Shown here piece by piece: positions 36,449 through 48,248 of a stretch of DNA of 64,000 bases. Positions within the stretch are counted from its first letter, which is position 1; every line of letters begins with the position of its first letter. Below the pieces are notes generated by a model. That model saw only the letters and a list, made by a program, of their open reading frames with translations, made no database searches and had not been told where the DNA came from. The position numbers were made by a program, and so were the translations under genes. Source of the stretch: Pararhodobacter sp. (GTDB lineage Bacteria; Pseudomonadota; Alphaproteobacteria; Rhodobacterales; Rhodobacteraceae); contig JAFIEK010000003.1 in assembly GCA_020832545.1 (NCBI GenBank), positions 62,001 through 126,000 of the forward strand, written 5' to 3'.

Positions 36449-37645
36449 TCAGAAGGCCGCCGTATAGATCTCCAGCGCATCGGCCTGCGTCACCGGGCGC
36501 GGGTTGTTGACCAGAAGGCGCGTCTGATTCATCGCGTCACTGGCCAACCGTGGCAGGATGGCGCGGTCGATCCCCATGTCGCGCAGGCGTTGCGGCAGGC
36601 CACAGGCCGCTGACAGATCGGCCAGCCGGTCGCATAACGCCGTCGCGCATTCCTGACCGTTCAGCCCGGCAAGATCAGGGAACAGATGTGGGGCAAGTTC
36701 GGCATAGGGCTGTGGCGCCACCACCGCGTTGAAGCGCAGCACATGCGGCAGAACCAGCGCGTTCGACAGACCGTGCGGAATATGGAAATGCCCGCCCAGC
36801 GGATAGGCCAGCGCATGTACCGCAGCCACCGGCGAATTGGCGAATGCCTGCCCTGCCAGCATCGAACCCAGTAGCATATCTGCCCGCGCGCCCGTGTCGC
36901 TGCCGTCCTGCACCGCGCGCAGCAGTGCCCGCCCCATCAGTTGCAACGCCTGCACGGCCAGCGCCTTTGAGAGCGGGTTGTTGTTTGCATTGGCCGATGC
37001 ATAGGCCTCGATCGCATGGACCATGGCATCGATCCCAGTTGCGGCGGTCACAGGGGCGGGCAGGCCAAGTGTCAGTTCGGGGTCAAGTAGGGCCAGATCC
37101 GGCAGCAGGATCGGTGACACGACACCCATCTTTTCCTGCGCCCCGGTGGTGACGATCGAAATCGGCGTAACCTCGGACCCGGTTCCGGCGGTGGTGGGCA
37201 CCAAAACAAGGGGCAGGCGCGGCCCGGTCGCGTTGCCCACGCCATACATCTGCGCCAGCGTCTGATGGCCCGGCACCAGCGCCGCCACCAGCTTGGCCAC
37301 ATCAAGCGACGACCCGCCGCCAAGTCCCAGAATGATACCTGCCCTGGCCGCCTGCGCGGCATCCACTGCCGCCAGAATGACGGTCTCAGGCGGATCGGCC
37401 TGTACATCGGAAAAAACCGTGACCGACCGCCCCGCTGCAGCCAGCAAGGCGTTGACCCGGTCTACGATCCCGGTGGCAAGGAGGCCCGGGTCGGTTACCA
37501 GAAACACCGCCCCCGGCGCGATCATGTCCAGAAGCGTCGGCAGTGCCGCCAGCTTGCCATGCCCGAACTCCAGGCTTTTGGTTGTGTTGAAGGTGAAGGG
37601 CGACACGAGGGTGTCTGTGCTGCTTGTTGCGTCTCTATCCTGCAT
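36449..37645 (-). CDS. Iron-containing (group III) alcohol dehydrogenase
   Basis: The 398-residue product (ATG 37645 after GGAGCTTC) has the NAD-binding 'GLGGGSSLDVAK' near residue 100, 'PTTAGTGSEVTPIS' near 150, and the iron ligands in 'GIDAMVHAIEAYAS' (Asp, His) and 'HALAYPLGGHFHIPHGLSNA' in part (two His). These enzymes reduce or oxidise small alcohols, lactaldehyde or maleylacetate. It is the final gene on the minus strand of the sugar cluster, 321 bases beyond the isomerase, so it may act on an aldehyde released by aldol cleavage there. Confidence 0.93.
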   Translation of the reverse strand: MQDRDATSSTDTLVSPFTFNTTKSLEFGHGKLAALPTLLDMIAPGAVFLVTDPGLLATGIVDRVNALLAAAGRSVTVFSDVQADPPETVILAAVDAAQAARAGIILGLGGGSSLDVAKLVAALVPGHQTLAQMYGVGNATGPRLPLVLVPTTAGTGSEVTPISIVTTGAQEKMGVVSPILLPDLALLDPELTLGLPAPVTAATGIDAMVHAIEAYASANANNNPLSKALAVQALQLMGRALLRAVQDGSDTGARADMLLGSMLAGQAFANSPVAAVHALAYPLGGHFHIPHGLSNALVLPHVLRFNAVVAPQPYAELAPHLFPDLAGLNGQECATALCDRLADLSAACGLPQRLRDMGIDRAILPRLASDAMNQTRLLVNNPRPVTQADALEIYTAAF

Positions 37646-37646
37646 T

Positions 37647-37802
37647 TCAGAAGCTCCATGCCTGAATCGTGCCAATCCCGGCCGCACTCAGCACCGCAAC
37701 AACCACCGCAAGCAAATGTTCACACTCCGCGCGGTCCTGATCCGGGCGCAGAACGGGCGGTGGGTCATAGCGGACAACCGATTGGCGCAACGGCACGGCC
37801 AT
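37647..37802 (-). CDS. Possible 51-residue single-helix membrane protein
   Basis: An ATG at 37802 opens a 51-codon frame ending TGA at 37647, one base before the alcohol dehydrogenase ATG and containing that gene's ribosome site, as in coupled genes. The product is basic/polar at first ('VVRYDPPPVLRPDQDRAEC') then has one hydrophobic helix 'HLLAVVVAVLSAAGIGTIQ'. No ribosome binding site is visible ahead of it and the frame carries a stop just upstream, so it could be a decayed tail. The other bases of the 37646-37966 gap show nothing recognisable. Confidence 0.35.
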   Translation of the reverse strand: MAVPLRQSVVRYDPPPVLRPDQDRAECEHLLAVVVAVLSAAGIGTIQAWSF

Positions 37803-37966
37803 GCCCGGACGGTAGGCCAGAAATCAGCCAAGTCCAAGCCCGGGAATCCGGTTCAGCACGCAGACCAGGGCTTCGAGCAATCTGGTGCTCGTAGAATGCT
37901 GTCTGCGGATGACACCCCAGCGTCTGACCTGCGCAGACGCCATATTTTTTTGGACGCAAGGCTTGG

Positions 37967-38806
37967 TCAGCTCTCGGGGGCGTTCACCAGTGCAGCAAAA
38001 CGTTCCTTGCAGACCGCCAGAACCTCTTCGCCCGGGCGTTTCCACCAGTTCTGCGCCGAGAATATCTCAACCTCCTGAGGGCCGGAATAGCCCGCGGCCT
38101 CGATCATCGCGCGGATGCCGACAAGGTCGATCACACCGTCCCCCATCATCCCGCGATCCAGAAGCAGGTCTGTTGTCGGCACCAGCCAGTCGCAAATGTG
38201 ATGGGCTAAGATCGCGTTCATCCGCCCGGCGCGAGCAATCGCTTCGGGCAGGCCCGGGTCCCACCAGACATGATAGACGTCTATCGCCACGCCCAGCCCG
38301 TCACCCAGCAACTCGCACAGATCGAGCGCCTGATCGAGCGTGTTCACACAGGCCCGATCAGCCGCATACATCGGGTGCAGCGGTTCGATGGCCAGCGGCA
38401 CGTTGCAGGCCCGCGCATGTGGCAGCATGGCAGCAATACCCTCGGCGACCTGTTCGCGTGCGGCCTTGATATCGCGCGAACCATCGGGCAGGCCGCCGAC
38501 CACCAGCACCAGGCAATCGGCGTTCAGTGCCGCCGCCTCGTCAATGGCGCGCAGGTTGTCGTCAAGCGCGGCCTTGCGCCCGGCGATATCGGCGGCGGGG
38601 AACATGCCGCCCCGGCACAGCCCCGTCAAACGCAGCCCGTTCGACCGGACGATGTGCGCAGCTTCAGCCAGTCCTATCGCTTCCACCTGATCACGCCACG
38701 GCGAGATTGCTGTCACGCCTTGTGCAAGACACCCCTCGACCGCCTCTTTGAAGCCCCAGACCTGACGCGTCGTGGCAAGGTTGAGGGAAAGAATGTTGTC
38801 GGTCAT
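37967..38806 (-). CDS. Sugar phosphate isomerase/epimerase-type TIM barrel
   Basis: A 279-residue AP-endonuclease-2-like TIM barrel. Metal-site segments are 'VPLAIEPLHPMY' (Glu near 148), 'GVAIDVYHVWWDPGL' (Asp/His near 180), 'AHHICDWL' and the C-terminal 'QEVEIFSAQNWW' (Glu). This is the pattern of hydroxypyruvate isomerase, IolE/IolI and xylose-isomerase-like enzymes. Its ATG overlaps the enolase-family gene's stop (ATGA). It is likely a step in sugar or sugar-acid breakdown, acting between the oxidoreductase and the aldolase-like protein. Confidence 0.88.
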   Translation of the reverse strand: MTDNILSLNLATTRQVWGFKEAVEGCLAQGVTAISPWRDQVEAIGLAEAAHIVRSNGLRLTGLCRGGMFPAADIAGRKAALDDNLRAIDEAAALNADCLVLVVGGLPDGSRDIKAAREQVAEGIAAMLPHARACNVPLAIEPLHPMYAADRACVNTLDQALDLCELLGDGLGVAIDVYHVWWDPGLPEAIARAGRMNAILAHHICDWLVPTTDLLLDRGMMGDGVIDLVGIRAMIEAAGYSGPQEVEIFSAQNWWKRPGEEVLAVCKERFAALVNAPES

Positions 38807-40215
38807 GGCGTCGTGTCCTCCGAAAGCGGCGAAAGAGAGTCGATCTGCGGGCTCAGCGCACAGCCAAGCCCGACAGCCGCGAATGTGCTGGCCAGTGCGA
38901 TCTGCCCGTCCTGAATGCGCAATCGCGTCTGGCCCTGTACCTCATCGTAAAGATCAGGATGCGCGCGGGCGTAGCTTGCCTGTTCCTCCGCCGTCGCCCG
39001 CCCCATGCCGCCAGCGAAATGGTGGCCATTGCGCTCCACATGGGTGTTACCAGTGATCGCCGCGAGCACAAGATCCTGTTGCAGGGCAAGGCCCGGTTGC
39101 ACAGTCAGATCCTCGGCGGACAAGAACAACCCGTCGCCATTGGCCACCCGCGCTGCATTCAGTAGCGCGCGGTAAACCCCCTTGCAGGATTTCGAGGAAA
39201 CGCCGGTATACCCCAGCTTCTGCGCCTGAACGAATGCGTCAATATCGGCATCAGATTCGTCGATTTCCAACGCCACCCTTGCCGCGAGCGCCGAGACATC
39301 GGCTGTCAGCGCCTGTGCCCGCGCAATGGGCTGTTCGACGAACAACAACCCGCTGTGCAATGACGCGAGCGCAGGTTGGGCTGCAATGCCGTCCAGCAAC
39401 TCTGCCAGCGGCGCAGTGCCGGTATACTGCTCATTCCCGTCCAGCGTGGCGCGATAGCCCGGCGCATGGGCATCAAGCACGGCGACTATCCGGGCAAGCC
39501 GCGCTAGATCAGCTTGCGGATCGCCAGACAGCTTGAGCTTGAAATACCGGTGCCCATAAGCCGCAATCACGTGTTCAAGGCTTTGCGGCAGGCCGTCGTT
39601 CAGCGGTTCAGCAATCTCTGCGGTATCAAGCGCATCGCCCAGACCCACGGTATGACGCGCCGCAATGCTGTCCGGTGCGGGAAGCTGACGCAAAAAGGCG
39701 CTCAGATCGAACCCCGCCAGATCAGGTGTCGTGCGTGCATCAATCCCCGCAAGATTGGTGCGCAATGCAGCGATGGCCGGCAGCCCTGACATCCGGCACA
39801 AAGCATCAAGCACAGCACGATCCGCCAGCGCCAGCCCGAAGGATGCAATCAGACCGTTCAGCCCTTGCCCTGCGCAGGTTGCATAATGCCAGGGCTGCGC
39901 ACGTGCGTGCAGACCAAAAGCCGTGTCAGTACCGGCGTCGCCCAGTGCCTTCAGCCCCAGTCGCAGCGCCGCGCGCAACTGGTCGATATTCTGCGCGACA
40001 CTCAGATCGGGCGATTTGTCGAACCAGCGAGGCATCATCATCTCGGCGGCCCAACCGTCGGCGCGGCGGCCTTGCGCATCCTCGATCGTCACACGGACAA
40101 AGGCCTGCGGTGCCGCCGAAACTTCGGCGGCACCGAAGCGGAAGGGAAAGCGGAAGGTCACTGGCCGCTCGAATGCCGCCCAGTCGACGACGCGCAGGTT
40201 CGGCGCGTCGGTCAT
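38803..40215 (-). CDS. Atypical enolase-superfamily protein
   Basis: 470 residues, longer than the usual 370-400 of mandelate-racemase-like enzymes. Enolase-superfamily marks are 'YFKLKLSGD' (KXK, first base), then acidic residues in 'LDGNEQY', 'FVEQPI' and 'LEIDES' as the three metal ligands, and 'SSKSCKG' where the second lysine base would stand. C-terminal 'SAEDLTVQPGL' completes the barrel. The N-terminal domain is unusually long ('FRFPFRFGAAEVSAAPQAFVRV' in part). Superfamily members remove a proton next to a carboxylate and dehydrate, racemise or cycloisomerise acids. It overlaps both neighbours by 4 bases, so it is fully operonic. The exact reaction is unknown. Confidence 0.8.
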   Translation of the reverse strand: MTDAPNLRVVDWAAFERPVTFRFPFRFGAAEVSAAPQAFVRVTIEDAQGRRADGWAAEMMMPRWFDKSPDLSVAQNIDQLRAALRLGLKALGDAGTDTAFGLHARAQPWHYATCAGQGLNGLIASFGLALADRAVLDALCRMSGLPAIAALRTNLAGIDARTTPDLAGFDLSAFLRQLPAPDSIAARHTVGLGDALDTAEIAEPLNDGLPQSLEHVIAAYGHRYFKLKLSGDPQADLARLARIVAVLDAHAPGYRATLDGNEQYTGTAPLAELLDGIAAQPALASLHSGLLFVEQPIARAQALTADVSALAARVALEIDESDADIDAFVQAQKLGYTGVSSKSCKGVYRALLNAARVANGDGLFLSAEDLTVQPGLALQQDLVLAAITGNTHVERNGHHFAGGMGRATAEEQASYARAHPDLYDEVQGQTRLRIQDGQIALASTFAAVGLGCALSPQIDSLSPLSEDTTP

Positions 40216-41381
40216 TCCGTCACGCCATGCACGGCCAGAACGCGCGCCATCCGCGCCACGGCCTCGTCAGGGTCAGCCAGACAGCCTGCGGCATCAGCCA
40301 GCCGGAACAGCTCAGCCAGATGCTGCAACGAGCGCGCGCTTTGTTGGCCGCCGACCATAGTGAAATGGTCCTGCAAGCCGTTCAGATAGGCCATGAAGAC
40401 CACACCGGTCTTGTAGAACCGGGTCGGAGCCGCAAAGATATGGCGCGACAACGGCACGGTGGGTGCCAGCAGCGCATGAAACGCGCTGTCATCACCGCGA
40501 CCCAGTGCCTCCAGCGCGGCAGAGGCCGCAGGAGCGATGGCATCAAAAATACCCAGCAACGCATCCGAATGCCCGGTGTCGTCGCCCGCGATCAGTTCGG
40601 CATAGTTGAAATCGTCACCGGTATACATACGCACGCCATCAGGCAGGCGACGACGCATGGCAATCTCTTTCTCCTTTGACAGAAGCGAGATCTTGATGCC
40701 ATCAACCTTGTCGGCATGCGCGCCAATCACGTCCAGCGCCACATCCATCGCGGCCATATGGTCATGGTGACCCCAGTAGCCTGCCAGAGCGGGGTCAAAG
40801 TTTTCACCCAGCCAGTGGATGATGACAGGCTCCGCCGCGTTTGACAGCACATGGTCATAGACGCGGGCGTAATCATCCGGGCCGCGGGCTGCGGCGGCCA
40901 GCGCCCGGCTGGCCATCATGATGATGCGCCCGCCATAACCCTCGATCACCTCGAACTGTTCGTCATAGGCGCGCAGGATGTCATCAATCGTCACGCCATC
41001 GCCCGGCGACAGATGGTCGGTTCCTGCCCCGCATGCGATCAGCGCGTCATCGCGGCCTGCGGCCTCGGCCAGTGCGCGGCGAATCAATTCCTGCGCCTCA
41101 GGCCAGCCAAGGCCCATGCCGCGTTGCGCAGTGTCCATCGCCTCGGCGACGCCAAGGCCCAGATCCCACAGCCGATGACGGAACGCCAGCGTGCGCTCCC
41201 AGTCGATCGCAGGCGACAGCCATGGGTCATGGACGGCCAACGGGTCCGCCACAACATGTGTGGCGGCATAGGCGATGCGCGGAAAATCGGCGGCACGGCG
41301 GCGGGCCAGCGGCACCGGTGTGCCGGTCAGCCGGTAGCCTTGCAGTCCACCTTCGGGGGTTGGCAGTATGAGCGCGGCCAT
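40212..41381 (-). CDS. DUF993 (dihydrodipicolinate-synthase-like) protein
   Basis: The 389-residue product starts at 41381, 4 bases after the oxidoreductase stop. It reads as a TIM-barrel of the DapA-like DUF993 family: 'RIAYAATHVVADP', 'DLGLGVAEAMDTAQRGMGL' in parts, 'GAGTDHLSPGD', and near 225 'KVDGIKISLLSKEKE', in which the lysine of 'GIKISLL' is positioned like the Schiff-base lysine of class I aldolases. I infer an aldolase or dehydratase on a keto-sugar acid. The family has no well-defined reaction that I know of. Confidence 0.82.
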   Translation of the reverse strand: MAALILPTPEGGLQGYRLTGTPVPLARRRAADFPRIAYAATHVVADPLAVHDPWLSPAIDWERTLAFRHRLWDLGLGVAEAMDTAQRGMGLGWPEAQELIRRALAEAAGRDDALIACGAGTDHLSPGDGVTIDDILRAYDEQFEVIEGYGGRIIMMASRALAAAARGPDDYARVYDHVLSNAAEPVIIHWLGENFDPALAGYWGHHDHMAAMDVALDVIGAHADKVDGIKISLLSKEKEIAMRRRLPDGVRMYTGDDFNYAELIAGDDTGHSDALLGIFDAIAPAASAALEALGRGDDSAFHALLAPTVPLSRHIFAAPTRFYKTGVVFMAYLNGLQDHFTMVGGQQSARSLQHLAELFRLADAAGCLADPDEAVARMARVLAVHGVTE

Positions 41382-41385
41382 GGCG

Positions 41386-42537
41386 TCACACGTCCAGCGC
41401 GGGCACGTCAAGCCAGCGGCGCTCTTTCCAGGATTGCAACCCAAGCGAGGCAAGCTGCACGCCCTTGGCACCCGCTTCCATCCCGTATTCCCACGGCGCA
41501 TCTTCGGCGATGTGGCGCAGGAACATCTCCCACTGGACCTTGAAGCCGTTGTCTGCGGGCCAGTTGTCAGGCACTTCTTCCCAGTCATCAAAGAAATTCA
41601 TGGTCTGCGGCTGATCAGGGTTCCAGGTCGGTTTCGGGGTATTCACGCGGTGCTGCGTGAAACACTTGTGCAGCCCCGCAACGGCCGAACCATGCGTGCC
41701 ATCCACCTGAAACGTCACCAGATCATCGCGCCGCACACGCACGGCCCAGGATGAATTCAACTGCGCGATAATCCCGCCTTCCAGCTCGAACGTGGCATAA
41801 GCCGCGTCATCTGCATCGGCGGCATAGGCATTCCCTGCCTCATCAACGCGCGACGGGATATGGGTGGCACCAAGGCAGGACACGGCGCGCACCTCGCCGA
41901 ACAGATTATCCAGAACATAGCGCCAGTGGCACAGCATATCGAGGATGATGCCACCGCCATCATTCAGGCGGTAGTTCCATGATGGGCGCTGCGCCTGCTG
42001 CCAGTCGCCCTCGAACACCCAGTATCCAAACTCGCCACGGACCGACAGGATCTTTCCGAAGAAGCCCGAATCACGCAACATCTTCAGTTTCATCAGTCCA
42101 GGAAGGAACAGCTTGTCCTGCACCACTCCGTGCTTGAGCCCTGATGCACGCGCTTTCTTCGCCAGCGCCACCGCGCGGTCCAGATCATCGGATGTGGGTT
42201 TTTCACAATAGACATGCTTGCCTGCGTCCAGCGCCTGTTCCAGCAGGCCCGCGCGCATCTGCGTTGTGCCTGCATCGAAGAACAGCGTGTCATCGGGATT
42301 GGCCAGCGCACCGGCAAGGTCATCGCTCCAGCGTGCGATGCCGTGCTTTTCAGCCAGCGCGCGCACCTTGTCGCCGTTGCGGCCAACAAGGATCGGGTCC
42401 GGCATCAGACGGTCGCCGTTCTTCAGCGCAACACCGCCCTGCTCACGGATGGCAAGGATCGACCGCACCAGGTGCTGGTTGTATCCCATCCGCCCGGTGA
42501 TGCCGTGCATGATCAGTCCAAGACGTTGTTCGGCCAT
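41386..42537 (-). CDS. Gfo/Idh/MocA-family oxidoreductase
   Basis: The 383-residue product starts after GGGGGGAGG. It has an N-terminal Rossmann fold ('GLIMHGITGRMGYNQHLVRS', in which the usual GXGXXG is replaced by 'HGITGRMG') and the family's 'AGKHVYCEKPTSDD' with the conserved EKP near residue 125. The C-terminal domain follows with 'NDGGGIILDMLCHW' holding the catalytic Asp/His. The family oxidises hydroxyl groups of sugars, inositols and sugar acids with NAD(P). First gene of the minus-strand half of the sugar cluster, with a palindrome 50 bases upstream. Confidence 0.9.
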   Translation of the reverse strand: MAEQRLGLIMHGITGRMGYNQHLVRSILAIREQGGVALKNGDRLMPDPILVGRNGDKVRALAEKHGIARWSDDLAGALANPDDTLFFDAGTTQMRAGLLEQALDAGKHVYCEKPTSDDLDRAVALAKKARASGLKHGVVQDKLFLPGLMKLKMLRDSGFFGKILSVRGEFGYWVFEGDWQQAQRPSWNYRLNDGGGIILDMLCHWRYVLDNLFGEVRAVSCLGATHIPSRVDEAGNAYAADADDAAYATFELEGGIIAQLNSSWAVRVRRDDLVTFQVDGTHGSAVAGLHKCFTQHRVNTPKPTWNPDQPQTMNFFDDWEEVPDNWPADNGFKVQWEMFLRHIAEDAPWEYGMEAGAKGVQLASLGLQSWKERRWLDVPALDV

Positions 42538-42586
42538 TGTCGTCCTCCCCCCTCTTCCGCATCTGAAAGCAGAGCGGAATGTGTAT

Positions 42587-42602
42587 GTAACCTGTTAGTT
42601 AC
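42587..42602. promoter_or_regulatory. Palindrome upstream of the oxidoreductase operon
   Basis: The 16-base element GTAACCTGTTAGTTAC is a near-perfect inverted repeat (GTAAC/GTTAC arms). It matches 11 of 16 bases of the element at 44333, upstream of tctC on the other half of the cluster. Size and symmetry suit a TetR-family repressor, and one is encoded at the end of the TTT operon. Confidence 0.6.
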
Positions 42603-42644
42603 TTAGCCGGGTGGTGGCGTATCGGTCAAGCGCGAATGCACGTT

Positions 42645-43385
42645 TCAGAAGCCAAGCGCCATCCCGATACCCGCCACGCACAGGAAAACCAGGATCAACC
42701 GGTCAAACAATTTGGGGCTGGCGCGGCGGCCGAGCCAGTCACCCACCGGCATGAACAACATGATGGGAAGGCAGGCAAACAAGCCCTGCCACACCCATTC
42801 GGGCTGGTAGATTCCGGCGAAAATGAGGGCCGGGAACTGGACAGACGCAAACCCCAGAAACATCACCGACACAGCCAGAACCGAGGCGCGCCGCTCCAGC
42901 CCCAGCGCGTGAATGAAGGTCACGCCAATCGGAGCGGCAATACCCGTGGCGCCCATCAATGTGCCCGCTGCCAGCCCGACCGGGGCAGACATGCGCCGGG
43001 CGATCACTGCTGAAAGGGCGAACTCGGGCCGCGCCAGCCGCAGCGCGACATAGCTCAGGAGCATCGCGCCCAACCCCATTTCCAGCATCCGTTCGGGCAG
43101 CGAATCCAGCGCCCATGTGCCCAGCACAATCCCCACAGCACCGCCCAGAAGAAACCGTGGTAGGAACGCAAGGCCCGGCAATGCCCGGGCGTCGCGATAG
43201 GTCCAAACCTGATAGACGTTGCTCAGAATTATGGGAATCATGATGACGCCGATGGCCTGTTGCAGTCCCACGCTCGCCGCCAGCAAGGGCAGCGCAATCA
43301 GCGGCAGGCCCAGCCCGGTCGCCCCCTTGGCGATAGCTCCGGCGCCTAGTGCGAGCGTCAATAATAGTAGCGTTTGCAGTTCCAT
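42645..43385 (-). CDS. TauE/SafE-family permease
   Basis: Started at 43385 after a strong GGAGGAG site, the protein has 246 residues and about seven to eight membrane helices. It has the family repeat 'GAGAIAKGATGLGLPLIALPLL' in parts near the N-terminus and its counterpart 'LAAGTLMGATGIAAPIGVTF' in the middle. TauE/SafE proteins export or import sulfite, sulfoacetate and other small organic acids. It faces the isomerase gene at 43480 and sits inside the sugar cluster, so it may move an organic acid intermediate. Confidence 0.9.
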   Translation of the reverse strand: MELQTLLLLTLALGAGAIAKGATGLGLPLIALPLLAASVGLQQAIGVIMIPIILSNVYQVWTYRDARALPGLAFLPRFLLGGAVGIVLGTWALDSLPERMLEMGLGAMLLSYVALRLARPEFALSAVIARRMSAPVGLAAGTLMGATGIAAPIGVTFIHALGLERRASVLAVSVMFLGFASVQFPALIFAGIYQPEWVWQGLFACLPIMLFMPVGDWLGRRASPKLFDRLILVFLCVAGIGMALGF

Positions 43386-43479
43386 TGATGCTCCTCCGCG
43401 CGCCGCCTGCATTGACAGCAGCCCGGCCAGGCCCGACGATCGACTGTCAAAAAAACGTCCGTCAGATGTGGAGTTAGCC

Positions 43480-44331
43480 ATGGAATTCGCCCTTTGCAAC
43501 GAAGTTGTGAAAGAGATGCCGCTGCCTGAACAATGCCGCTTTGCAGCTCAGCTGGGGTATGCGGGGCTGGAAATTGCGCCCTTCACGCTGGCCGAAGACC
43601 CCACACGGATGACCTCGCGCCAGATCGCCGAGACCCGTCGCATCGTCGAGGATCACGGGCTGCGCGTAACAGGGTTACACTGGCTTCTGATCGCGCCCGA
43701 GGGGCTTTCGATCACCGATTCAGCTGCAGACATGCGCCAGCGAACCGCCGATGCGCTGGCCACTCTCGTCGATCTTTGCGCGGAACTTGGCGGGCGCGTT
43801 CTGGTCCATGGTTCGCCCAAGCAGCGCCGACTTGGCGATGACCCCGCACGCGCCCGGGCGACGGCGCTGGCGCATCTGGCAGCGGCGGGAGCACGGGCGC
43901 GTGCGGCCGGGATAACCTATTGCATCGAGCCGCTTTCAGCAGACGAATCCGATTTCATCAACACTGTGGCCGAAGCCGCCGCGCTGGTCCACGAGGCCAA
44001 CGAACCCGGACTGCGAACGATGATCGACACCGGACATGCGCTGCGTGGTGAGGGCGAAACGCTGGCGGACCTGGCCGCGCGCTGGCTACCCACAGGGTTG
44101 ATCGAACATGTCCAGTTCAATGACAGCAACCGGCGCGGCCCCGGGCAGGGTGAGGACCGGTTCGGCCCGCTGATGGCACAGCTCGTTGCGGCGAAATGGG
44201 CGCATCCACTGGCGATCGAGCCGTTCGTCTACACCCCCGACGGCGCAACCACTGCGGCGCAATCCATTGGACATTTGCGGGGCGTTCTGGACGGGTTGAG
44301 TACCGGAGCATCTGCCCCCGCAAGGCATTAA
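43480..44331 (+). CDS. Sugar phosphate isomerase/epimerase-type TIM barrel
   Basis: The 283-residue product (ATG 43480 after GGAG) is a second xylose-isomerase-like barrel, distinct from the one at 37967. It opens 'FALCNEVVKEMPLPEQCRFA' in part and 'GYAGLEIAPFTLAED', typical of the family. Metal-site segments are 'ITYCIEPLSADESDF', 'GLRTMIDTGHAL', 'IEHVQFNDSNR' and 'PLAIEPFVY'. It precedes tctC by 104 bases on the same strand. Having two such isomerases in one cluster suggests a multi-step interconversion such as keto-sugar isomerisation or 3-keto-sugar handling. Confidence 0.88.
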   Translation: MEFALCNEVVKEMPLPEQCRFAAQLGYAGLEIAPFTLAEDPTRMTSRQIAETRRIVEDHGLRVTGLHWLLIAPEGLSITDSAADMRQRTADALATLVDLCAELGGRVLVHGSPKQRRLGDDPARARATALAHLAAAGARARAAGITYCIEPLSADESDFINTVAEAAALVHEANEPGLRTMIDTGHALRGEGETLADLAARWLPTGLIEHVQFNDSNRRGPGQGEDRFGPLMAQLVAAKWAHPLAIEPFVYTPDGATTAAQSIGHLRGVLDGLSTGASAPARH

Positions 44332-44332
44332 T

Positions 44333-44348
44333 TGAACCGTTTGGTTAC
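44333..44348. promoter_or_regulatory. Related palindrome upstream of the TTT operon
   Basis: TGAACCGTTTGGTTAC at 44333-44348 has the arms AACC/GGTT and resembles the element at 42587. It begins one base after the isomerase stop and lies 8 bases before a -35-like TTGACA (44356-44361), so a bound repressor would cover that promoter. No matching -10 could be placed with confidence. Confidence 0.5.
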
Positions 44349-44435
44349 TTTGCGCTTGACAGAAAGCCCTTCGCCGCCTCAGGCTTGGGGCAGTGCTGCC
44401 TGGTGAGGAGGCAGCGGTCAGGGAGGACATTCGAA

Positions 44436-45470
44436 ATGAAGAACAGTATCCGGACAAGACTCGTGGCTGGTGCGTTTGCAACCATCGCGCTGTCGACAGG
44501 TGCGCTTGCACAGGACTGGACGCCCAGCGGCCCGATCAACATCATCGTGCCCTGGGGGGCAGGCGGATCGACCGACCAGGTCGCGCGCGTCACAGCACCG
44601 ATCATCGCCGAGGCGCTTGGCGTCAACGTTGTGATCGTCAACCAACCCGGCGCTTCGGGTTCGATCGGAACACAGGCGGTGCTGGACGCGCCACGCGACG
44701 GCCTGACATGGACCGCGAACGCCATCAAGAACAACGCCACCTATTCGGTCAGCGGTCTGATCGAGGATACATCGATCGATGACTGGCACATCTACCTTTC
44801 GGTCGCCAACGCGCCGATGGTGAGTGTGCCTGCGGACAGCGAGTTTCAGGATTTCGGCGAATTGCTTGAGGCTTTCCGCACCCGCGGCAGCGAAATCACG
44901 GTGGCTACTGCCGGTGGCACATCGTCAGGTGGCACGGCGATTGCCAGCCTCGCTTCGGCGGGGGATTTCGAGTACCGCATGATCACCTATGACGGCGGTG
45001 CACCTGCTGCCATTGCAACGGCAGCAGGCGAGGCGATGGTGACAACGCAGCTGGCCGTCGAACAGACAGAGCTGGTGCGTGGTGGTCGTCTGCGCGCACT
45101 TGCGATCCTGTCGGATCAGCCATTGATCGTCGAGGGCGCTGACCCGGTTCCGCCGATCACCGACTGGCTGGATATGCCGATCACGCCGGACTACTTCGGC
45201 ATCTTCATCCCGCGCGGCGTGCCCGACGAAGTCATCGCGACGATGGACCGGATCTGGGAAGAGCGCGTGGCGACCTCAGACAGGCTGCGCGAATACGCCG
45301 AAACCTTCGGCGCCGTTCTGGCACCGTCCTGGGGTGAGACTGCGCGCGAACGCTCAATGCCAATCGCCATCGCCGACGCCTGTGGCAAGCATGCGCGGGG
45401 CGAGGCCGTGATTGAACCCTCTGAACTTGGCTTCGATTGCGACACCATGTCGGAGATCGACTCGCAGTGA
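44436..45470 (+). CDS. tctC: TTT-family periplasmic binding protein (TctC)
   Basis: The 344-residue protein starts after GGGAGG and has a signal peptide cleaved after 'GALA' (residue 22). 'PINIIVPWGAGGSTDQVARV' (in parts) is the first TctC signature, followed by 'VVIVNQPGASGSIGTQAVL' and 'TAGGTSSGGTAIAS'. TctC proteins capture carboxylates in the periplasm for the TctAB permease encoded next. In this cluster the ligand is probably a sugar acid or related carboxylate. Confidence 0.94.
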   Translation: MKNSIRTRLVAGAFATIALSTGALAQDWTPSGPINIIVPWGAGGSTDQVARVTAPIIAEALGVNVVIVNQPGASGSIGTQAVLDAPRDGLTWTANAIKNNATYSVSGLIEDTSIDDWHIYLSVANAPMVSVPADSEFQDFGELLEAFRTRGSEITVATAGGTSSGGTAIASLASAGDFEYRMITYDGGAPAAIATAAGEAMVTTQLAVEQTELVRGGRLRALAILSDQPLIVEGADPVPPITDWLDMPITPDYFGIFIPRGVPDEVIATMDRIWEERVATSDRLREYAETFGAVLAPSWGETARERSMPIAIADACGKHARGEAVIEPSELGFDCDTMSEIDSQ

Positions 45471-46051
45471 GCCAACCTAAGAGCGGACGACCCGCGAAAA
45501 GCGAATCGCAGGAAGACCCTGGGGGGCCGTCCGCTCCAGGCCAGGACCCCGGCATCATGACCCGTGCCGATCTGTTGTCGGGTATCGTGTTTCTGGTGCT
45601 GGGTGTTGCTGTCGCCTGGATGTCATGGGAAATGCCGCGCCTTGAGGTGCGGCGCATTCATCCGGCCACAGTGCCGGGGCTGGTGCCGGGCATACTTGGC
45701 CTGGCGCTGGCATTTTGTGGAACACTGTTGGCTGTGCGATCGGTGCGTGCATCGCGTGATCGCGAAGGGTGGCATGCCTTCGGTGCGATCTTCGTGTCGC
45801 CTGAGACTGGTCGCGCAGGCGTGACCCTGGCGCTGGCACTGATCTACGCGCTGGGGCTGGTGGGCCGGATGCCGTTCTGGGCCGCGACGATGCTGTTTGT
45901 TTTCGCCTTCATCATGGTTTTTGAGCGCTGGCTGTCGGCCCCCGAACATCCGCTCTGGCGGACTGCCCTGGCAGCCGCGGTGCAGGCCGTCATTGTGGGC
46001 GCAACGGTTTCGCTGGTGTTCCAGCACGGTTTTCTGGTGCGGCTGCCATGA
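45467..46051 (+). CDS. tctB: TTT-family small permease (TctB)
   Basis: The GTG at 45467 overlaps the tctC stop (GTGA), which argues for this start and a 194-residue product; ATG 45557 is the fallback. After a polar 30-residue head there are four membrane helices ('LLSGIVFLVLGVAVAWMS', 'GLVPGILGLALAFCGTLLA', 'TLALALIYALGLVG', 'AVIVGATVSLVFQ'). 'HPATVPGLVPGIL' is the usual TctB loop. It works with TctA. Confidence 0.88.
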   Translation: MSQPKSGRPAKSESQEDPGGPSAPGQDPGIMTRADLLSGIVFLVLGVAVAWMSWEMPRLEVRRIHPATVPGLVPGILGLALAFCGTLLAVRSVRASRDREGWHAFGAIFVSPETGRAGVTLALALIYALGLVGRMPFWAATMLFVFAFIMVFERWLSAPEHPLWRTALAAAVQAVIVGATVSLVFQHGFLVRLP

Positions 46052-46087
46052 GGCATGCCGCTTATCTCGGGCTGATCGGGGCGCGCA

Positions 46088-47614
46088 ATGTTTGACGGTT
46101 TTGTGCTTCTGGGCAACGGGTTGGCGCATTTCATGACGCCAACTTCGTTGTTCAATGTCGCCTGGGCAACGCTTCTGGGTATCATGATCGGGGTGCTGCC
46201 GGGCTTGACGGCGACCATGGGCGTGGCGCTTCTGGTCACTCTGACCTACCCCATGCCCCCTGATCAGGCGATCCTGTGCCTGATGTGCATCTATGTCGGC
46301 GCCATCTATGGCGGCAGCCGCACCGCAATCCTGCTGGCCATTCCCGGCACCCCCGCAAGCGCTGCGACCACGCTTGACGGCTATCCGCTGGCATTGGCAG
46401 GCAAAGGCGGGCTGGCAATGGGGCTGGCCACGACCTCGTCGGCGATCGGTACTCTGGTGGGCATTCTCTGTCTTGCGCTGCTGGCACCACTGTTGGCCGA
46501 AGCCGCACTGAATTTCGGCTCCTATGAGTTCTTCTGGCTGGCGCTGTTCGGGGTGGTGGTCTCAGGGCAGTTGACGGCGTTCGACGACCCGATCAAGGGC
46601 TATGTTGCCGGCATTCTGGGCCTGCTGGTCGCCATGATCGGGATGGAGGGGTTGCACGCCTATCGTCGCTTCACCTTCGGCGTACCCGCGCTTGGCGGCG
46701 GTATTGACCTGATCCCCGCGATGGTGGGCGCGTTCGGGTTGGCCGAGATCCTTGTGGTGATGAAACAGCGCGCAAAGGCTCGTATCATTGATGCCTCGGA
46801 CAGAGTGGTGCCGCGGCTGGCCGAGATCTGGAAATACCGCCGCACGACAGTGCGTTCAGGGGTGATCGGCACATTGGTCGGGATCATTCCCGGCGTGGGC
46901 GAGGATATCGGCGCATGGGGGTCATATGCGGCGGCGCGCCGCAAAAGCCCTGAGCGAGAGCAATTCGGAAAGGGCAGCCTGGAAGGGTTGATCGCCGCCG
47001 AAACCGGCAATAGCGCTGCCATCCCGGGGGCGATGATACCCACGCTGACACTGGCGCTGCCGGGCTCGGCGGCGGCGGCGGTGCTGATCGCGGCCATGTT
47101 CATCCACGGTATCCGCCCCGGACCGATGCTGATGATCGAAAACGCTCCCTTCCTCTATCAGGTGATCTCGATGCTCGTTCTCGCATCGCTGGCGATTACC
47201 GTCTACGGGCTGCTGATCACGCGACCGCTGCTGAAGCTGATGAGCGTCCCGCGCGAGCGGCTTATGCCGGTGGTCTATGTGTTGTGCGTCATCGGCGCGT
47301 TCGCAATCACGCAGCGGCTTTTCGACGTCTATGTGATGATCGCCTTCGGGATCTTCGGTTTCGTGCTGCGCGAGATGCGCTATCCGATGGCGCCGCTGGT
47401 GATGGGGATCATTCTTGGCACGCTTCTAGATGTGAATCTGCGTCGCGGTCTTGCAATCTCGGATGGAGATCTGACCCCCTTCTTTACCCGGCCGGTTTCA
47501 GCGGTTATCTGCGCCCTGATCATTCTGACGATCCTTTTCAGCATCCCGGTGGTAAAACGACGTGTCACAAGTCTCTTCTCGAAAACCGACAACGCAGCGC
47601 CCGGTGAGAACTGA
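46088..47614 (+). CDS. tctA: TTT-family large permease (TctA)
   Basis: A 508-residue membrane protein with about twelve helices. TctA signatures are 'GIMIGVLPGLTATMGVALLV' (in parts) near residue 28, 'YVGAIYGGSRTAILLAIPGTPASAATTLDG' in pieces near 75, and the second half's 'GTLVGIIPGVGEDIGAWGSY' with 'PGAMIPTLTLALPGSAAAAV'. The two PG-rich half-repeats are characteristic. It provides the channel of this transporter, and its 3' end overlaps the TetR gene. Confidence 0.95.
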   Translation: MFDGFVLLGNGLAHFMTPTSLFNVAWATLLGIMIGVLPGLTATMGVALLVTLTYPMPPDQAILCLMCIYVGAIYGGSRTAILLAIPGTPASAATTLDGYPLALAGKGGLAMGLATTSSAIGTLVGILCLALLAPLLAEAALNFGSYEFFWLALFGVVVSGQLTAFDDPIKGYVAGILGLLVAMIGMEGLHAYRRFTFGVPALGGGIDLIPAMVGAFGLAEILVVMKQRAKARIIDASDRVVPRLAEIWKYRRTTVRSGVIGTLVGIIPGVGEDIGAWGSYAAARRKSPEREQFGKGSLEGLIAAETGNSAAIPGAMIPTLTLALPGSAAAAVLIAAMFIHGIRPGPMLMIENAPFLYQVISMLVLASLAITVYGLLITRPLLKLMSVPRERLMPVVYVLCVIGAFAITQRLFDVYVMIAFGIFGFVLREMRYPMAPLVMGIILGTLLDVNLRRGLAISDGDLTPFFTRPVSAVICALIILTILFSIPVVKRRVTSLFSKTDNAAPGEN

Positions 47615-48248
47615 ACCCGTCTCCCGGCGTCGCAATTCGGAAAAGACCAAGGAGCAGATCCTTGCCGCCGCGCGGGCAGAGTTCTGCAAACACGGGCTCG
47701 CGGGCGCACGTGTCGACGCCATCGCAGAACGTGCAAAGGCGAACAAGCGGCTGCTGTACCATTACTTCGGCAACAAGGAAGAGCTGTATCGCGCGGTGCT
47801 GATGGATGCCTATGCCGAGATCCGCGCAGGCGAACGCCAGTTGAACCTTGACGCCTTGTCGCCGGATGAGGCCATGGACCGGCTGGTGCGCTTCACATTC
47901 CGGCATTTTCTGGCGCATCCCTGGTTCACCAGCCTGCTGTCCACAGAGAATGTTCAGAATGCCGCCTTTCTCAAGACGCTGCCTGACATTCCTGCGCTGC
48001 ACTCCCCCCTCGTCGGCCAGATCGAACGAATTCTGGAGAACGGACACCGCGAAGGAATATTCAGAGACGGTATTGACCCTGTGCAGCTCTATATCTCCAT
48101 CGCTGCATTGGGGTATTTCTATGTGTCGAACATGAAAACCCTCTCGGTCATCTTTCAACGCGACCTGAGCGCGACATCCCCCGTGCAGGAACGTGAGGCC
48201 CAGATCGTGCAGATGGTGCTTCGCTATCTGTGGAAACCGGGCGCGTAG
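47562..48248 (+). CDS. TetR-family transcription regulator
   Basis: The 228-residue protein has a basic head, then an HTH at about 30-75 ('TKEQILAAARAEFCKHGLAG', 'VDAIAERAKANKRLLYHYFGNKEELY' in pieces), and a helical effector domain with 'FRHFLAHPWFTSLLSTEN', as in RutR-like TetRs. The 'KRLLYHYFGNKEELY' wording is that subgroup's. The start is uncertain: GTG 47562 overlaps tctA by 53 bases, GTG 47607 by 8. As last gene of the operon it is the likely owner of the palindromes at 42587 and 44333. Confidence 0.85.
   Translation: MSQVSSRKPTTQRPVRTEPVSRRRNSEKTKEQILAAARAEFCKHGLAGARVDAIAERAKANKRLLYHYFGNKEELYRAVLMDAYAEIRAGERQLNLDALSPDEAMDRLVRFTFRHFLAHPWFTSLLSTENVQNAAFLKTLPDIPALHSPLVGQIERILENGHREGIFRDGIDPVQLYISIAALGYFYVSNMKTLSVIFQRDLSATSPVQEREAQIVQMVLRYLWKPGA

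Follow-up and report, generated by a model that had tools for sequence, protein, structure and literature searches.

A DUF993-centred gene cluster in Pararhodobacter sp. and its relatives, proposed to serve the breakdown of a sugar-acid-like carboxylate

The analysed stretch of 64,000 nucleotides from Pararhodobacter sp. (assembly GCA_020832545.1, contig JAFIEK010000003.1, positions 62,001 to 126,000; hereafter the window) carries a gene cluster built around a protein of the DUF993 family. Nine genes of the window, spread over both strands, are one catabolic system. The cluster is real, conserved and widely shared, and apparently uncharacterised; its general kind is familiar, with a lyase-like family at the centre. 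We see about an even chance that it is a dedicated, TetR-controlled cluster for the import and breakdown of a polyhydroxylated sugar-acid-like carboxylate. An earlier note on this DNA had named 11 genes between 36449 and 48248, all of which were found in their places, and had read them as one cluster working on a sugar or sugar acid, a reading that the analysis supports. Its statement that no known pathway could be named also holds: none of the NCBIfam matches listed for ten proteins of the cluster region and for the TetR regulator reaches its cut-off, and no curated family of known function was assigned.

Gene linkage and the operator-like motif

The core operon lies on the minus strand and starts with an NAD(P)-dependent dehydrogenase of the Gfo/Idh/MocA family (hereafter Gfo; 41386..42537; PF22725, PF02894 and PF01408), followed by DUF993 (40212..41381; PF06187, 612.9 bits), by a protein of the enolase superfamily (38803..40215; PF13378, 38.7 bits) and by isomerase 1, a metal-dependent xylose-isomerase-like TIM barrel (37967..38806; PF01261, 126.7 bits). 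These four genes do "overlap or nearly touch", as had been described: a gap of 4 nucleotides separates Gfo from DUF993, and DUF993 and the enolase, like the enolase and isomerase 1, overlap by 4 nucleotides, which suggests translational coupling. A 7-bp hairpin (GCGTCTG...CAGACGC, 37920-37940) stands directly 3' of isomerase 1, with a T-run on the plus strand. The plus strand carries isomerase 2, which is ketose 3-epimerase-like (43480..44331; PF01261, 121.4 bits), the periplasmic binding protein TctC of a TTT carboxylate transporter (44436..45470, the start being read from the sequence; PF03401, 63.1 bits), its small and large membrane subunits TctB (45557..46051; PF07331, 46.5 bits) and TctA (46088..47614; PF01970, 450.7 bits), and a TetR-family regulator, the proposed repressor of the cluster (47562..48248; PF00440 and PF17938). 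The TTT transporter is complete, each of its three subunits scoring above the Pfam cut-off.

Conservation of the linkage was followed in two sets of loci, 80 fetched with the enolase as query (the best 80 of 88 confirmed places) and 39 DUF993 regions (38 places outside the window's genome and one further DUF993 place). Neighbours were counted by tblastn, and the counts for the 39 regions are lower bounds, since several of these end at contig ends. Gfo, DUF993, the enolase and isomerase 1 stand on the same strand within 6 kb at 74 of the 80 enolase loci, and this linkage is not due to chance; the core is incomplete at the other six, four of which are cut by contig ends (L010, L011, L067 and L072) and two of which belong to Xanthobacter. 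At 68 loci TetR has a homologue no farther than 9.5 kb from the enolase; the same distance takes in TctA at 10 loci and isomerase 2 at 8, all of the latter falling among the 10 TctA-bearing loci. DUF993 is accompanied most constantly by isomerase 1 and Gfo, not by the enolase: within 8 kb of DUF993 they were found in 33, 29 and 19 of the 39 regions, respectively, followed by TetR (18), isomerase 2 (12) and TctA (7). Wherever isomerase 2 is near DUF993, the enolase is there too (12 of 12, p = 1.3e-5 in a Fisher test that ignores kinship), and the seven TctA-bearing DUF993 loci all have both the enolase and isomerase 2. In Nitratireductor, the order TctC-TctB-TctA-TetR-isomerase 2-enolase-Gfo-DUF993-isomerase 1 forms a single run on one strand. 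Because of this nine-gene run and of the co-occurrence, isomerase 2, the TTT transporter and TetR, which the earlier note had placed in the cluster in spite of their opposite strand, belong to the same system as the core.

Two further genes of the region fare differently. The iron alcohol dehydrogenase (Fe-ADH; 36449..37687, minus strand; PF00465/PF25137), which sits 279 nucleotides beyond isomerase 1, is probably not part of the cluster: a homologue was found within 9.5 kb of the enolase at one of the 80 loci and near DUF993 at one of the 39 (L159, 34% identical), and the four nearest loci (L010-L013) gave no match. As a final reductive step it was rejected on this account, being conserved in place at a single enolase locus; homologues just beyond 9.5 kb in L061 (61% identical) and L085 (36%), together with that of L159, speak against the rejection. 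The TauE/SafE-type permease, a possible exporter (42645..43385, minus strand; PF01925, 85.2 bits), does lie between the two strands' gene groups, as had been noted, and is conserved at only two of the 80 loci, both from Rhodobacteraceae, so that it was rejected as a core part and its membership is doubtful.

Many of these operons are preceded by a palindrome, GTAACYNNNNRGTTAC. The window copy, GTAACCTGTTAGTTAC (42587..42602), lies between Gfo and TauE, 49 nucleotides before Gfo, and is proposed as the TetR operator of the core operon; it is the sole exact match in the 4.37-Mb genome, where three more sites have one mismatch. Across 120 loci, 64 exact sites were counted at 54 loci against none in five order-1 Markov resamplings, an enrichment that is not independent, as the motif was derived from these same loci. 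Of the 63 exact sites outside the window, 57 precede a reference-set gene by no more than 400 nucleotides, Gfo being the commonest. Twelve genomes, picked for having an exact site at the locus, hold 17 exact sites, one or two per genome, of which 16 are inside the cluster and the remaining one lies some 9 kb away from the site of the cluster itself. The motif is located at the DUF993 locus and almost nowhere else, and is not merely rare. The exact motif stands before Gfo in S. meliloti 4H41 (L034), while in Sinorhizobium and its kin a one-mismatch copy lies between TetR and a divergent sugar ABC operon; one-mismatch copies weigh little, since plain shuffling of the first 60 loci already leads one to expect 12 of them. 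The Azospirillum group (L046-L072) gave no match with up to one mismatch, apart from one in L058. The conserved TetR would bind an operator of the GTAACYNNNNRGTTAC type. The locus-specificity of the motif makes the effector, and hence the substrate, directly testable in a laboratory rhizobium.

Core enzymes and the distribution of DUF993

The structure of one relative of DUF993, SMc04132 of Sinorhizobium meliloti, is known (4dnh; match of 661 bits). The predicted model of the window protein (pLDDT 84) has the TIM-barrel fold of the dihydrodipicolinate synthase (DHDPS)/N-acetylneuraminate lyase superfamily: the Foldseek probability was 1.00 to the listed DHDPS structures at about 12-17% identity, and, 4dnh apart, the 49 matches listed had TM-scores to the targets of 0.64 to 0.83. 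Lys225 (numbered from base 41366) stands on strand 6 (221-227) and is invariant in 36 sequences, i.e., the window protein and 35 of the 80 loci, rows with stop codons and short or redundant rows being left out. The strand-6 position is taken here to be the Schiff-base lysine site of the DHDPS family. Assignment of Lys225 to it follows from strand order and fold match, because a sequence-profile alignment to a DHDPS-family protein failed; PF00701 was not matched at E<=0.01. The motif GTTGE, which we take to bind pyruvate in DHDPS, and the strand-5 tyrosine are replaced in DUF993, by strand order, by an invariant MDTAQRGMG (DTAQRG) and by a His-Trp pair (HWLG), respectively. The model and these residues suggest that DUF993 is probably a Schiff-base lyase, an aldolase or a dehydratase, whose substrate is not handled like pyruvate.

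The model of the enolase-superfamily protein (pLDDT 92.1) had 251 matches in the PDB (E<=0.001), of which those listed, 50 in number, are all enolase-superfamily proteins of 13-21% identity, and the capping domain and barrel of that fold are both present in the model. Its residues K226 and K228 (KxK), D259, E294, D319 and K342, at the ends of barrel strands 2-6, are invariant in 46 sequences (the window protein and 45 of the 80 loci, filtered in the same way), and presumably represent the muconate-lactonizing type set of acid-base lysines and three acidic metal ligands. The protein is probably catalytically active. By sequence it has no close solved relative, its single, weak match being to a dipeptide epimerase (E 4e-4). 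No NCBIfam equivalog for a specific reaction was matched (OSBS, 15.1 bits against a cut-off of 288), the structural matches were generic and the N-terminal Pfam domain was not recognised.

The two remaining core enzymes are closer to proteins of solved structure. Gfo matches 3oqb, a PDB entry titled just "Oxidoreductase", with 618 bits, and isomerase 1 matches 3qc0 and 3ju2 (SMc04130) with 447 bits. Lys113 of the EKP motif, Asp200 and His204 of Gfo are kept in at least 97% of 86 sequences, and E141, D176, H203 and E247 of isomerase 1 in at least 97% of 89; all of them we assume to have catalytic roles. Three of the four core proteins, or close relatives, therefore have PDB structures, yet a literature search, whose coverage excluded most subscription journals and bioRxiv, turned up no paper that names DUF993 or PF06187.

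Of 386 genomes searched in the window's class, 38 contain DUF993, and the window's genome is one of these. Among 72,556 plasmid records the family occurs in 147; Sinorhizobium, Rhizobium or Ensifer account for 93 of them, many being near-identical strains. Above the cut-off DUF993 was absent from 17 other searched genomes of the genus (G001-G017, some of them incomplete), among which one weak sub-threshold match appeared. A search of the genus for an empty site had no clean result: both flanks were well matched in G002 and G010, yet on different contigs. The cluster is patchy and was perhaps acquired horizontally. At three loci of one genus (L143, L146 and L157), none of the genes that normally accompany DUF993 lies within 8 kb of it, and boxB of the aerobic benzoyl-CoA pathway is close by.

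Proposed pathway and its alternatives

According to the mechanism that we propose, TctABC would import a polyhydroxy carboxylate, and TetR, seated at its GTAACYNNNNRGTTAC operator, would block the cluster as long as neither the substrate nor an early product is available. Gfo would oxidise a secondary alcohol to a ketone, and isomerase 1, with isomerase 2 where present, would shift or epimerise the keto group in a metal-dependent reaction. DUF993 would then bind the keto compound to its strand-6 lysine as a Schiff base and cleave or dehydrate it, perhaps releasing a C3 unit that in some lineages, those with a glycerate kinase nearby, would lead to glycerate. The enolase-superfamily protein, as an epimerase or dehydratase abstracting the alpha proton of a carboxylate, may be an optional feeder of the core for a second stereoisomer or a precursor, often together with isomerase 2. 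The sequence of steps put forward in the earlier note (oxidise, isomerise, dehydrate, cleave, reduce) cannot be called complete, as the reducing Fe-ADH is not a conserved partner and the enolase, which may epimerise instead of dehydrating, is optional, being present at 19 of the 39 DUF993 loci.

The genes around the core vary with the lineage. A TTT transporter accompanies it in Rhodobacteraceae, Chelativorans, Pelagibacterium and Nitratireductor. Azospirillum, Microvirga, Ancylobacter and Chelatococcus have an NMT1-type ABC transporter, whereas Sinorhizobium, a Devosia and Pelagibacterium lentulum combine a sugar ABC transporter with additional Gfo genes; in these last two groups the transporter families were named from one representative each. 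Clustering of the open reading frames (ORFs) of the 39 regions revealed a PhyH dioxygenase at 5 loci, a second DHDPS-family protein at 10 and an HpaI-type aldolase at 3; the ORFs were predicted with a simple codon-usage method that missed some genes, and each cluster took its name from a single representative's Pfam match. In L132, L141 and L148 the PhyH-type dioxygenase follows just after an exact motif, with an NMT1-type transporter and near TetR, and its reaction may hint at the substrate. Among 16 annotated plasmid regions, hand-picked and not drawn at random from the 147 DUF993 plasmid records, 7 contain a glycerate kinase and 8 a CoA-transferase, 6 of these 8 with an enoyl-CoA hydratase and 5 with a 3-ketoacyl-ACP reductase (SDR). 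CoA-transferase and DUF993 also define a second type of locus (L009, L097, L100 and L168; also L091, L093, L096, L163 and L164), which mostly adds an isomerase, an enoyl-CoA hydratase, an SDR and an acyl-CoA dehydrogenase, and sometimes a glycerate kinase; the exact motif GTAAC-N6-GTTAC is present in the first four of these loci and in none of the other five.

A more specific proposal we advance tentatively, as a possibility short of probable: DUF993 may be a new class I (Schiff-base) lyase acting on a keto-sugar acid instead of a pyruvate-type substrate, and the hub of a modular, operator-defined regulon in which importers and feeders are swapped by lineage so that related natural compounds reach one intermediate. 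The importers would be the TTT, NMT1 ABC and sugar ABC transporters, and the feeders the enolase with isomerase 2, the PhyH dioxygenase, the second DHDPS-like protein and the CoA-transferase set.

Several observations weigh against a single TetR-controlled cluster for a sugar-acid-like carboxylate built on DUF993 cleavage. Since TTT, NMT1 ABC and sugar ABC transporters alternate between lineages, a carboxylate substrate is not certain, and since the substrate motif of DUF993 is unlike that of DHDPS, its chemistry may differ as well. Glycerate kinase occurs near DUF993 in just 2 of the 39 regions, the enolase is missing from 20 of them, and in Xanthobacter (L077 and L081) the adjacent enolase and DUF993 genes have neither a Gfo nor an isomerase 1 match on their strand within 6 kb. 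The exact motif is lacking at 66 of the 120 loci. Between TauE and isomerase 2 in the window there is no match even at two mismatches, and the second operator-like site, before TctC (44333..44348, two mismatches), is weak, about six such matches being expected in the window by chance. With up to one mismatch, a reversed control pattern occurs 20 times in the window's own genome against 4 for the motif, and its exact form 9 times in the 12 genomes against 17; therefore, in the genome-wide scans, only the position of the motif and not its number counts as support.

Among other explanations, a 3-keto deglycosylation of the levoglucosan or phlorizin kind would have Gfo oxidise C3 of a glycoside or anhydrosugar, the PF01261 enzymes carry out beta-elimination and hydration, and DUF993 and the enolase handle the 3-ketosugar. 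We consider it unlikely. The same families are adjacent, as Gfo with one or two PF01261 proteins, in the operons described in the available parts of PMC10628242 and PMC10066097, and the Sinorhizobium versions of the cluster have a sugar ABC transporter and three additional Gfo genes; in those same parts, however, neither DUF993 nor an enolase is named. The levoglucosan dehydrogenase model scored 52.3 bits against a cut-off of 650, and the second oxidoreductase of such a pathway, the reductase of 3-ketoglucose, has no counterpart among the cluster genes (the part of the genome searched), which include one Gfo and a Fe-ADH that is not conserved. The TTT and NMT1 transporters, uncommon for glycosides, also argue against this explanation. 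No eliminase-named structure was among those listed for isomerase 1 or 2 at E<=0.001, a result that decides little because AtOGE is described, in the text available, as having no similarity even to CGEs. A pathway for a cyclitol or cyclic polyol acid, inositol-like, appears still less probable. There, Gfo would make a ring ketone, PF01261 would dehydrate it as an inosose dehydratase does, and DUF993 would open or cleave the product. IolG is the best NCBIfam match of Gfo, as it is for two of three representatives of neighbouring Gfo genes, isomerase 2 is IolO-like and a scyllo-inositol dehydrogenase is among the solved relatives of Gfo, but the scores of 60.7 bits for IolG and 74.2 for IolO are far below the cut-offs of 355 and 300. 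No hydrolase or isomerase of the inositol pathway was named in the 16 annotated regions, no model search for them having been made.

Sulfosugar or sulfonate breakdown is very improbable in our estimate. TauE would export sulfite or a sulfonate, Fe-ADH would serve as a reductase of the sulfoacetaldehyde type, and import of the sulfonate would fall to the NMT1/taurine-like ABC transporter found in other lineages. TauE is indeed present in the window, SarD is the second-best NCBIfam match of Fe-ADH, and NMT1-, SsuA- and TauB-like transporter components occur in other lineages; the SarD score is nevertheless 273.8 bits against a cut-off of 700, TauE and Fe-ADH are found at 2 and 1 of the 80 loci, and no sulfonate lyase or monooxygenase was named in the 16 annotated regions, for which no model search was made either. 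The levoglucosan, inositol and sulfonate pathways were all rejected as assignments, their family scores being far below the cut-offs. Finally, that the two strands carry unrelated transcripts, neighbours by accident, is hardly credible for the cluster as a whole. It does span two strands, and this explanation may hold for Fe-ADH and TauE, which are not conserved partners, but it is contradicted for nine genes by their single-strand run in Nitratireductor, by isomerase 2 occurring at 8 of 10 TctA-bearing enolase loci and 7 of 7 TctA-bearing DUF993 loci, and by the motif common to these loci.

Comparison with known systems

The core enzymes resemble well-known superfamilies at a distance. DUF993 shares with DHDPS and N-acetylneuraminate lyase (PF00701, which includes L-KDA dehydratase) the TIM barrel and a conserved strand-6 lysine, and differs by its low identity and by DTAQRG and His-Trp in place of GTTGE and tyrosine; the window enolase has the fold, the KxK motif, the three acidic metal ligands and the strand-6 lysine of muconate-lactonizing type enolases, and differs by its 13-21% identity and by having no specific NCBIfam match.

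At the level of operons, those for levoglucosan and plant O-glycosides proceed by oxidation, elimination and hydration by PF01261 enzymes and reduction by a second oxidoreductase, according to the available parts of PMC10628242 and PMC10066097. The levoglucosan genes LgdA-B1-B2-C and the Agrobacterium GlycDH/AtOGE/AtHYD set share with the window a Gfo beside PF01261 enzymes, the oxidise-first logic and, for levoglucosan, a dedicated transporter, there of the ABC type. As far as those sources show, they have two oxidoreductases where the window has one Gfo, and no DUF993 or enolase is named; the window has TTT and TetR. The families overlap, and membership of the window cluster in this group is not supported.

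Literature searches by enzyme names, by PDB codes and for the sugar cluster of the nicotine plasmid pAO1 of Paenarthrobacter nicotinovorans found nothing relevant among the results listed. The pAO1 cluster (L095, 54380-83570) combines Gfo, DUF993 (50% identical) and glycerate kinase with a sugar ABC transporter; it differs from the window in its GntR regulator, aldehyde dehydrogenase and GMC oxidoreductase, and no isomerase or enolase is annotated in it.

The region SMc04130-SMc04139 of S. meliloti has an orthologous core, from which the structures 4dnh (SMc04132) and 3ju2 (SMc04130) derive; it differs from the window by its sugar ABC transporter and extra Gfo genes, and the corresponding locus of strain 4H41 gave no match to TTT or isomerase 2. 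Neither PMC12542648 nor PMC11387232, both found through S. meliloti locus tags, gives a function in the parts available for these genes; SMc04134 is mentioned in the latter among network regulators. According to the accessible part of PMC12542648, detection of SMc04132 (the DUF993 protein), SMc04133, SMc04135, SMc04138 and SMc04139 was confined to complex medium, and their levels were lower in the phaR phbC mutant than in the phbC mutant (log2 fold changes of -1.69, -3.65, -1.23, -1.31 and -1.07, respectively). The table is limited to proteins beyond a log2 fold change of 1 in that module and thus says nothing on the remaining proteins of the cluster. Judging from gene order, SMc04133, SMc04135 and SMc04138/SMc04139 would be the Gfo, the binding protein and the Gfo pair of the locus.

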